Part shown: in pieces, positions 32,218 through 35,117 of the stretch
Position numbering within the stretch: the stretch's first letter is position 1
Layout: each line of letters begins with the position of its first letter
Source: a virus
Length of the DNA stretch: 39,874 nucleotides
Strand: one strand, 5' to 3'
Virus record (IMG/VR): IMGVR_UViG_3300025099_000051
Span: 1-39,874 of that record
Position numbers and translations under genes: made by a program
Notes under the pieces: generated by a model
Seen by the model: only the letters and a program-made list of their open reading frames with translations
Databases searched by the model: none
Told to the model about the DNA's origin: nothing

Positions 32218-32246
32218 AATGTAACCTAAAACGTGTCTTTAAACAA
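32218..32246 (-). promoter_or_regulatory. Candidate leftward early promoter PL with operator
   Basis: On the - strand: TTGTTT (32246-32241), 17-bp spacer, TACATT (32223-32218). The spacer contains the operator-like GTAACCTAAAACGTGTC (32221-32237 on the + strand), which matches the PR operators in its right half. It would control the recombination/excision operon. Box matches are moderate; the operator agreement adds weight. Confidence 0.55.
32221..32237 (+). promoter_or_regulatory. Operator-like site at PL
   Basis: GTAACCTAAAACGTGTC shares the last nine bases (AAAACGTGTC with the PR set) and parts of the left half. It overlaps the spacer and -10 of the leftward promoter, where bound repressor would block leftward early transcription. 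Confidence 0.6.
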
Positions 32247-32284: not shown

Positions 32285-32313
32285 TTGACTTATTAAAAAA
32301 AATTCTGTAATTT
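32285..32313 (+). promoter_or_regulatory. Candidate promoter for 32391-33394 genes
   Basis: TTGACT (32285-32290), 17-bp spacer, TAATTT (32308-32313), 77 bases before the gene at 32391. The -35 is good, the -10 is weak. It is the only reasonable promoter seen before the two + strand genes that lie between the divergent early operons. Confidence 0.45.
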
Positions 32314-32390: not shown

Positions 32391-32870
32391 ATGAAACTTA
32401 CAAAGAATCCGCTCGGGGAAGAAATACCCGAAGTTTGGTTAGCCAACGAAGCCAACAGTCCCGAAGGGAAATGGGCAGCGAATCTTCGCCCCGCTCCACT
32501 GGGTCGAGGCATCACAAACACGACCGCCATCGGACGAGCGACGGACGTTGACATCCGCACCGGATGGGTGGGTCATCTGACCACCCGCGAAATGAAAGAT
32601 CGATGGTCGCGGCATAAATCAGTCATTCCCGCCAATCACATGGACAACCACAAAAATGGCACTTCTTGCGCCCCCTACGAGGCAATACGTTGGGGCGCGT
32701 TGTGGGTCAGCAGACACACTAAAGGTTGGACCCCACTGGCCTATCTAGGACATGAGTGGCTCGGAATCAATCGAAAAATCCCGCCGTACCATTTCCAAGA
32801 CGTTCCAATTTTCGGAGCGCCCCAAGTTTACCTTTCCAAATTGTTTCGCCCCGTCAAACATTTTCTTTAA
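32391..32870 (+). CDS. Unknown protein in the switch region
   Basis: A 159-residue protein that I do not recognise. It has several Trp (for example WVGHLTTREMKDRWSRHKS, then IRWGALWVSRHTKGWTPLAY) and a basic middle, but no membrane segment or signal. It is separately promoted between PL and the PAS gene, so it could be expressed during lysogeny. A regulatory or superinfection role would be inference. Confidence 0.65.
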   Translation: MKLTKNPLGEEIPEVWLANEANSPEGKWAANLRPAPLGRGITNTTAIGRATDVDIRTGWVGHLTTREMKDRWSRHKSVIPANHMDNHKNGTSCAPYEAIRWGALWVSRHTKGWTPLAYLGHEWLGINRKIPPYHFQDVPIFGAPQVYLSKLFRPVKHFL

Positions 32871-32929: not shown

Positions 32930-33394
32930 ATGGAACAAATTTTAGATAAGATCGGCAAATCTCAACAGCTCGATAAAGTAGCGGTTGTAATCTGGGGCGG
33001 CCAATCTTTTAACACAATTTTAGAAGTTACAGAATCGTTCGCCGATATGCTCGATATGAGCCGCGAACAGTTAGTTGGCGCTCCCGTAACTGATATTACG
33101 CCGAAAATTTATGCAGATGACTCTGCCTGGGCAGGGGATCAGTTAAAAAATACCGATGGTCCTTTTTGTTTTTACAAATGCTATGAAAATATGAATGGGG
33201 ACCATGTGCCAGTTAAGTTAACTGCGCTGAAGGTTGTTGGACAGACTGAGGAAAAATTTATTACCGTGGTCGAAGTGATCGATCGGCTGCCTTTTCCAGA
33301 AATTGGTCAGCAGCCGTATCAAAAACGCGGTCGAAATGTTGTACCGTTTGCTTGTTCAATGACTAAACCGAAAGAACGTCAAGAAAGTCAGTAA
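32930..33394 (+). CDS. Single PAS-domain protein
   Basis: A 154-residue protein with one PAS sensory domain (about 20-125): VAVVIWGGQSFNTILEVTES, FADMLDMSREQLVGAPVTDI, and the terminal strands FCFYKCYENMNGDHVPVKLT, ITVVEVID. No output domain is present; a basic C-terminal tail of about 30 residues follows. PAS domains bind ligands, heme or flavin, or mediate partner contact. GAGG sits about 8 bases before the ATG. The gene is convergent with, and overlaps by 32 bases, the repressor gene, so it may modulate repressor activity; this is inference. Confidence 0.82.
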   Translation: MEQILDKIGKSQQLDKVAVVIWGGQSFNTILEVTESFADMLDMSREQLVGAPVTDITPKIYADDSAWAGDQLKNTDGPFCFYKCYENMNGDHVPVKLTALKVVGQTEEKFITVVEVIDRLPFPEIGQQPYQKRGRNVVPFACSMTKPKERQESQ

Positions 33395-33749
33395 CTTTCT
33401 GACCGTTGCCATTGCTGTAAACGCTGGCAACAATTTGACCAAACTGAGCGTCGGATAATTTAATCCGGCGCTTGGCGGCCTCTACTTTAATTTCGGTTAT
33501 CACTTTCGCCAGACGTTGTTTATCAATCTCCGCACCTTGCTGCTCGTAGCGCAACTTTGCAGGGTGAATTCCGAGCGCTTTGGCTGACGCTTCTATTTGT
33601 TGATCCGGCATTTTTTGCGTCAACGAGAACCAACGATACACTTGTTGGCGTGACACCCCAAGCTCCCGCGCAAAAGCGGCGGGGGTTAACCCCTGATCTT
33701 TACAAAGATCTTTTATTCGATTAATTGCATCCTCATGCATCTTGCTCAT
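33363..33749 (-). CDS. Phage repressor (HTH_3, Cro/CI-like)
   Basis: About 128 residues from MSKMHEDAINRIKDLCKDQG. Helix-turn-helix: LTPAAFARELGVSRQQVYRW. The C-terminal half is helical with no LexA/CI-type Ser-Lys protease, so RecA-dependent self-cleavage is not expected. ATG 33749 has GGAA about 6 bases upstream; ATG 33761 is an alternative without such a site. It transcribes away from three operators and would repress PR, PL and perhaps the late region. Confidence 0.8.
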   Translation of the reverse strand: MSKMHEDAINRIKDLCKDQGLTPAAFARELGVSRQQVYRWFSLTQKMPDQQIEASAKALGIHPAKLRYEQQGAEIDKQRLAKVITEIKVEAAKRRIKLSDAQFGQIVASVYSNGNGQKVTDFLDVLSV

Positions 33750-33825
33750 TTTGCGTTCCATAGTTGATTTATTTAATTATTTAGAATCTGAACAAGAGTG
33801 CAGTTTATCCGGATTTCCGGTAAAA

Positions 33826-33842
33826 GACAACTAACGGTTGTC
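33826..33842. promoter_or_regulatory. Operator 1 at PR
   Basis: GACAACTAACGGTTGTC is a perfect inverted repeat with a 5-base centre. It overlaps the -35 of PR (33838-33843) and lies upstream of the repressor, so it may also control repressor autoregulation. Confidence 0.75.
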
Positions 33843-33866
33843 ATTCCCGACGCGACACGTTATAGT
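33838..33866 (+). promoter_or_regulatory. Rightward early promoter PR
   Basis: TTGTCA (33838-33843), 17-bp spacer, TATAGT (33861-33866), each one mismatch from consensus. Operators overlap the -35, the -10 and the expected start. It would drive the leader, replication-like gene, small early genes and Q-like antiterminator. Confidence 0.75.
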
Positions 33867-33870: not shown

Positions 33871-33873
33871 TAA

Positions 33874-33890
33874 GACAACCAAAACGTGTC
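33874..33890 (+). promoter_or_regulatory. Operator 3 at PR
   Basis: GACAACCAAAACGTGTC, nearly equal to the site upstream of the terminase genes. It begins about one base after the expected PR start. Confidence 0.72.
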
Positions 33891-34178
33891 TCCTCCCTGC
33901 ACGGTTGTCTATTGTCCCCCTTCGGGGGGGCATTTTTGGGGGTGTCAGGAACACAAAGTGGGGTGGAACACCGAATTGCCCAGACCCTTGATTCCAGAAG
34001 CTCGGAAAAGCCCTGCGCTGACCAACCGCCCGTCAACAGGCACCGTGCCAATTTTTGATTATGCACTACCCGAAAGGGTATCTGGCTTTGCCAGAGGGGC
34101 ACGACCCAAAAGGTCGTGAAGTCCGAACCGGTAAGTCCCTATGGGCACGGGGTAGGGGCGGTTTTATGGAGAAAAATT
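33891..34178 (+). ncRNA. Hairpin-rich PR leader RNA
   Basis: About 290 bases without a credible gene. Hairpins: CCCCC-TTCG-GGGGG (33916-33929) with T-rich 3' side; GGCA-CCG-TGCC (34039-34049) followed by ATTTTTG; TACCC-GAAA-GGGTA (34067-34080); TCTGGC-TTT-GCCAGA (34081-34095); CACGACC-CAAAA-GGTCGTG (34100-34118). The last three are stacked almost without gaps. This may be an attenuator/antitermination leader, for example like HK022 put RNA, or a small structured RNA. Confidence 0.6.
33915..33937 (+). terminator. Terminator-like hairpin early in PR leader
   Basis: CCCCC, TTCG, GGGGG (33916-33929) then GCATTTTTGGG. The T run is interrupted from the stem by a few bases, so strength is uncertain. 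It lies about 45 bases after the expected PR start. Confidence 0.5.
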
Positions 34179-34724: not shown

Positions 34725-34842
34725 ATGGGAATGGTGCAAAGAACATGGGTTTGGCGATTTCATTTTGGAAATGACCAAGAGATTTGGTAAGCCGGAATCC
34801 ATAACGTGTTATCGCCGACCGCAAGAAGCCTCAAAAAACTAA
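34636..34842 (+). CDS. Small early protein, overlapping
   Basis: A 68-residue frame that overlaps the preceding gene by 89 bases and the next by 37. It contains KRAKWEWCKEHGFGDFILEM, a helical segment. Start weakly supported, no good ribosome-binding site; a later start may be correct. Reported with caution. Confidence 0.45.
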   Translation: MEKHDPIFPSGAERNLIADNEVLFSSKRAKWEWCKEHGFGDFILEMTKRFGKPESITCYRRPQEASKN

Positions 34843-35117
34843 GGGATGAAGGCTGGAATCCGTGGGTGGTTGAAGTTTTTAACCATTTCACCAAAACACG
34901 CCGTGACCTTTGGAACATCGGCGACATCATCGCCTATAAAGATCAAGAAATTATGCTGGTCCAAGCGACTTCAGCTTCGAATATCTCAGCGCGGGTAAAA
35001 AAGATCGAAAACAGCGAATTTATTGACGGAATTCGGGACGCGGGCTTTTTGGTCGAAGTATGGGGCTGGAAAAAGGTCAAAAACCGTTGGGAAGTCCGCG
35101 TGGTAGACGTTTCTTGA
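34806..35117 (+). CDS. Small PD-(D/E)XK-like early protein
   Basis: A 103-residue protein with a GTG start: ARSLKKLRDEGWNPWVVEVF, NHFTKTRRDLWNIGDIIAYK, DQEIMLVQATSASNISARV. The D...GDI...Q-x-T core is reminiscent of reduced PD-(D/E)XK nuclease/resolvase-like folds in phages (cf. small VRR-type proteins). Catalytic competence is uncertain. Stop overlaps next start by TTGA. Confidence 0.6.
   Translation: MLSPTARSLKKLRDEGWNPWVVEVFNHFTKTRRDLWNIGDIIAYKDQEIMLVQATSASNISARVKKIENSEFIDGIRDAGFLVEVWGWKKVKNRWEVRVVDVS

Follow-up and report, generated by a model that had tools for sequence, protein, structure and literature searches.

Does a lone PAS-domain protein, encoded tail-to-tail against the repressor gene of a phage, act on that repressor and so on the switch between lysogeny and lysis? 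The locus that raises this question lies in a 39,874-bp virus record, IMGVR_UViG_3300025099_000051, which is known from metagenomes only and was analysed over its whole length (the window). A preliminary description of this DNA had reported a PAS gene convergent with a repressor gene (32930-33761), and both open reading frames are found there, PAS at 32930-33394 (+) and the repressor at 33363-33761 (-), with 3' ends that overlap by 32 bp (33363-33394). It had also proposed that the phage uses the PAS protein to tune lysogeny, which is plausible from the sequence. Here, we describe a computational analysis of the two genes and their surroundings, and weigh this role against other explanations for their arrangement.

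The phage and its predicted lysogeny switch

The window encodes podovirus-type genes for head and portal, the portal being about 40-44% identical to those of Pseudomonas podophages. Integrase and excisionase genes are both present, and recombination genes point left, with genes for replication-like and Q-like antitermination proteins pointing right, as in lambdoid left and right operons. This combination of integrase, excisionase and paired operons indicates that the source of the window is a temperate, podovirus-like phage. A 103-aa nuclease-like protein (34806-35117), for which a PHROG search gave no match, is 47-54% identical to proteins of Xanthomonas, Stenotrophomonas and Methylophilales phages, which hints at a gammaproteobacterial or betaproteobacterial host. 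The locus was compared with that of one relative, the 14-kb IMG/VR contig IMGVR_UViG_3300030419_005652 (labels L002/L007). Gene order in this relative passes from the right end of the window (39874) into its left end (1), and because the two ends are joined in this way the record probably represents a circularly permuted genome that is nearly complete; an exact terminal repeat is absent from the ends.

The repressor gene encodes a protein of 132 aa from its first ATG or 128 aa from its second (33749), the latter corresponding to the start point of the relative's repressor. Residues 16-69 match HTH_3 (Pfam, E 3e-7), the protein matches phage-regulator PHROG entries, and its structure model (pLDDT 77) is all-helical, with the helix-turn-helix (HTH) followed by three further C-terminal helices. 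An HTH_3-type HTH encoded in the immunity region of a temperate phage places the protein among phage repressors of the Cro/CI type. A C-terminal S24/LexA-like peptidase was looked for by Pfam and gave no match, so the protein is not of the autoproteolytic LexA/CI type, and the preliminary account of a repressor of about 128 residues with an HTH and no CI/LexA peptidase is borne out.

A rightward promoter, pR, is predicted at 33838-33866 (+; TTGTCA-17-TATAGT), and the relative has a pR in the matching place (TTGACA-17-TAGAGT). Dyads resembling AGACAAC-N5-GTTGTCT occur at two sites of pR, its -35 and its start, where we annotate two putative repressor operators: AGACAACTAACGGTTGTCA (33825-33843), which covers the -35, and AGACAACCAAAACGTGTCT (33873-33891), at the start. 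The second of these contains the 11-mer AAAACGTGTCT, which recurs only as a putative left operator (32228-32238) in the spacer of a predicted leftward promoter, pL (-; TTGTTT-17-TACATT, read by eye). These two occurrences in the whole window compare with 0.01 expected, and the motif is taken as a putative operator common to both lytic promoters. Its presence at both promoters makes it very probable that the small HTH protein is the repressor of this phage.

About 40 nt past the predicted pR start lies a strong terminator-like hairpin (33913-33932), also present in the relative, which would either halt pR transcripts unless these are antiterminated or terminate transcripts arriving from the PAS gene and its upstream neighbour, gene X. 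A sub-threshold match to anti-hemB RNA (E 0.006) overlaps this hairpin. The best-conserved DNA near the immunity region is the leader 3' of pR (33958-34050), which has long exact runs in common with the relative, such as GGGGTGGAACACCG and ATTGCCCAGACCCTTGAT. It holds no gene-like open reading frame and no Rfam family above threshold, and the minimum folding energy of the pR leader is not unusual relative to shuffled sequences; the leader is possibly a cis-acting or small RNA. In the relative (L002:5221-5653, reverse strand) two small lipoprotein-like open reading frames, absent from the window, are located between the leader and the replication-like gene, and may encode superinfection-exclusion lipoproteins. 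Between pR and the replication-like gene of the window (33872-34116), no convincing Cro-like open reading frame was found, which is unusual for a lambdoid layout and leaves room for another repressor antagonist.

The PAS-domain protein

The PAS gene, whose ATG is preceded by a ribosome-binding-like GAGG, encodes a protein of 154 aa. Its match to Pfam PAS_9 (PF13426; E 2.7e-4) scores 21.6 bits and is sub-threshold against the gathering cut-off of 27 bits, and for the relative's homologue Pfam gives no PAS match. The earlier reading of the gene product as a lone PAS domain is nevertheless backed by three further comparisons. In tblastn searches of plasmids its best matches fall inside PAS domains from sensor kinases of Rhizobium, and Pfam recognises one of these as PAS_9. 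Alignment of the two phage PAS proteins to sensor-kinase PAS domains with hhalign gave 96.7% (E 4e-10), as compared with 0.1% for two other phage protein pairs used as controls and only 27% when the relative's protein was used alone; because the template was chosen following the tblastn match, this result is support rather than an independent discovery. In Foldseek, the top 50 PDB matches are all PAS/LOV-type or proteins with such domains (best E 1.4e-3, obtained with a poor query model, pLDDT 49). The structure prediction suggested in the preliminary description thus yielded fold matches of the expected type, for an AlphaFold model whose confidence is low, too low for docking. Neither the PAS protein nor the PAS pair, used as query, matched a PDB sequence. 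Homology to genuine PAS domains, evident from tblastn and hhalign, spans about residues 29-115 in both sequence and fold, and the agreement of profile-profile, tblastn and fold comparison supports assignment of the protein to the PAS domain kind.

Compared with the sensor-kinase domains that it resembles over this span, the phage protein is divergent, lacks a kinase or other output domain, and carries a C-terminal extension with the motif LPFPExGxQPYxK, conserved in both homologues. No HTH or other DNA-binding match was obtained in Pfam or PHROG. The basic tail attributed to the protein proved weak and is not conserved, the net charge over the last 38 residues being +3 in the window and 0 in the relative. 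Small PAS proteins, labelled by domain only, exist in other uncultured phages.

Two candidate identities were rejected. Cysteine or histidine residues that align between the two homologues are absent; since neither a flavin-binding Cys nor a haem-ligating His is conserved, a LOV photoreceptor and a FixL-type haem PAS are both unlikely. Nor is the gene a chance open reading frame, as a 37%-identical homologue occupies the same place and orientation in the second phage and its codon positions show a constrained pattern.

Arrangement, conservation and divergence of the locus

Gene X (32391-32870, +) lies 5' of the PAS gene in the same orientation and encodes a 159-aa protein of unknown family, for which database searches gave no match. 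It was considered as unrelated filler, a reading rejected on the basis of blastp (28% identity over 98 residues to a fast-evolving gene of the relative). Because gene X is also common to both phages, the unit comprises X and PAS, converging on the repressor gene. A tentative promoter for X-PAS, divergent from pL, was read from the sequence at 32285-32313 (+); its -10 is weak and the promoter scan of the window did not detect it, and a TTGAC box is found at its place in both phages (TTGACA in the relative).

The relative's repressor is 50% identical to that of the window, its PAS protein 37% and its gene X 28%, and its PAS and repressor genes are likewise convergent, with a 14-bp overlap. The search for the pair in other phages that the preliminary description called for was thus positive but thin: across IMG/VR, INPHARED phages, GTDB contigs and plasmids, this relative was the only further instance, and a comparison of the PAS protein with 50,697 phage records gave no match. 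The contig scans rely on short near-exact peptide matches, so that distant pairs may escape them. Phages that have only the neighbouring nuclease-like gene in common with the window either differ in gene content, with no PAS-repressor pair among their listed genes, or are represented by contigs that stop before this region. The immunity-region gene pair is real and conserved, with conservation seen in one relative.

Such convergence could act mainly in cis, if X-PAS transcription running antisense through the repressor gene lowered repressor by collision or antisense RNA and the PAS protein had a separate or minor job. The 3' ends overlap in both phages, and in the window the genes have no strong terminator between them, rightward transcription meeting its first one past the repressor gene, at 33913-33932. 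Weak terminator-like hairpins are present within both genes, however, and overlapping convergent gene ends are common in compact genomes. We regard this explanation as improbable, and it leaves unaccounted for both the conserved C-terminal motif and the constraint on the PAS protein that divergence between the two phages suggests. Synonymous sites are near or at saturation, and divergence is accordingly given as dN alone rather than as ratios: 0.99 for X, 0.57 for PAS and 0.42 for the repressor. Among the neighbours, only the adjacent first gene of the left operon diverges as fast (0.52), and five others, comprising flanking recombination, replication and antitermination genes, range from 0.15 to 0.29. 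Third codon positions are close to random and the first and second better kept, the values at positions 1, 2 and 3 of the PAS gene being 0.55, 0.63 and 0.38. From high dN together with this codon-position pattern, X, PAS and the repressor gene appear to form a fast-diverging yet constrained immunity region; they behave as genes under protein-level constraint that diverge faster than most of their neighbours, like immunity genes.

The same observations bear on a second explanation, in which X and PAS are lysogenic-conversion genes, expressed by the prophage from their own promoter and acting on host signalling or on superinfecting phages, with the repressor gene merely a neighbour. Accessory genes often sit beside the repressor, as do rexAB of lambda, and X-PAS has its own orientation and, tentatively, its own promoter, which in the window lacks the motif found at pL and pR. 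Furthermore, the PAS protein finds its nearest cellular matches among sensor kinases, and titration of such kinases by a lone PAS domain is conceivable. Conversion genes, however, are usually gained and lost, whereas both phages retain the X-PAS operon at this position, and its rate of divergence is close to that of the repressor gene, a point that is weak with two phages. Lysogenic conversion is a reading that we consider rather unlikely, if well short of negligible.

A proposed role for the PAS protein

Over lysogenic conversion and a mainly cis effect we tentatively favour a role in trans for the PAS protein on the lysogeny switch, to which we give somewhat less than an even chance. We envisage that the small HTH repressor, lacking self-cleavage, silences the prophage by occupying operators at both pL and pR, and that the two-gene operon X-PAS is transcribed divergently from pL and toward the repressor gene. 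The PAS fold and the C-terminal LPFPExGxQPYxK segment would bind the repressor, or another regulator acting on it, and this binding would alter the firmness of lysogeny, possibly upon binding of a small molecule. Convergent transcription through the repressor gene could add an effect in cis. The expression, binding, sensing and effect of the PAS protein are all steps that we infer. The proposal draws on position, co-conservation and divergence rate in two phages: the order and orientation of X, PAS and repressor are kept although the repressor has drifted to 50% identity and PAS to 37%, all three genes evolve fast with constrained codon positions, and AAAACGTGTCT is confined to pL and pR. Against it, the pair is found in two phages only, LOV or haem chemistry would lack a conserved Cys or His, the promoter assigned to X-PAS is tentative, and the slot beside a phage repressor also houses unrelated lysogenic-conversion genes.

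Known systems lend this role in trans some precedent. It is common for a repressor that cannot be cleaved to be inactivated by a partner protein, as in the Gifsy phages, where small repressors of the GfoR/GtgR type are inactivated by trans-acting, LexA-controlled antirepressors; such repressors are common and their prophages remain SOS-inducible (PMC3121763). Like these, the repressor of the window is small and has no inactivation by self-cleavage, so that another protein would be needed for induction; the Gifsy antirepressor genes sit outside the immunity region, whereas the PAS gene adjoins the repressor gene. The preliminary description had reasoned that without a peptidase SOS cleavage was not the obvious route to induction. 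The absence of the peptidase stands, but the inference drawn from it was overstated, since Gifsy phages achieve SOS induction through antirepressors (PMC3121763). No exact E. coli-type LexA box (CTGT-N8-ACAG) occurs in the window; this consensus is that of E. coli and may not be the host's.

There are also phage sensor modules that bypass SOS in acting on CI (PMC10432266, PMC12802170). The nearest functional precedent is VqmA of vibriophage VP882, which contains a PAS domain, serves as receptor for the host autoinducer DPO and turns on the antirepressor gene qtip (PMC12802170), whose product sequesters CI (PMC12802170, PMC8284805). As proposed here, a phage PAS-containing protein is thereby tied to the lysis-lysogeny switch, and VqmA acts without DNA damage. 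Phage PAS sensing of host state is thus less novel than the preliminary description held, although in VqmA the PAS domain is fused to a C-terminal DNA-binding HTH (PMC12802170). The PAS protein of the window has no DNA-binding domain and is not of the VqmA type; also unlike VP882, its gene converges with that of the repressor, which lacks a peptidase. In the TF-smORF modules of linear plasmid-like phages, sensors and small proteins inactivate CI independently of SOS (PMC10432266). Unlike the PAS protein, the sensors in question belong to transcription factor families such as LuxR and XRE and turn on small antirepressor genes, and the word PAS is absent from the main text of that paper (PMC10432266). 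We found no description of a solitary PAS protein encoded next to the repressor of a phage in the open-access literature, subscription papers lying mostly outside the search.

In its strongest form, a special case, the trans role would make the PAS protein an antirepressor that responds to ligand, redox or light. By direct binding to the neighbouring repressor, which is non-cleavable, it would induce the prophage in accordance with a host metabolite or state that it senses, so that sensor and antirepressor would be combined in a one-component switch with neither an SOS step nor a fused DNA-binding domain. The supported PAS fold, the conserved pair and a repressor without self-cleavage agree with this form, as does the precedent for phage PAS sensing of host state (PMC12802170). 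No ligand or cofactor signature, however, is conserved between the two homologues, and the sequences give no support to sensing of light or haem by a domain of the known LOV or FixL type. Many PAS domains, moreover, serve protein contacts only. We judge direct sensing of this kind to have a low probability.

How a prophage without a self-cleaving repressor leaves its host is an open question of mechanism for most phages. If the PAS protein does act in trans, the locus would represent a new variant of phage lysogeny control, by a route other than SOS cleavage or a quorum-receptor transcription factor. The conserved PAS-repressor pair is a small, concrete and testable candidate for how a phage might sense the state of its host directly.
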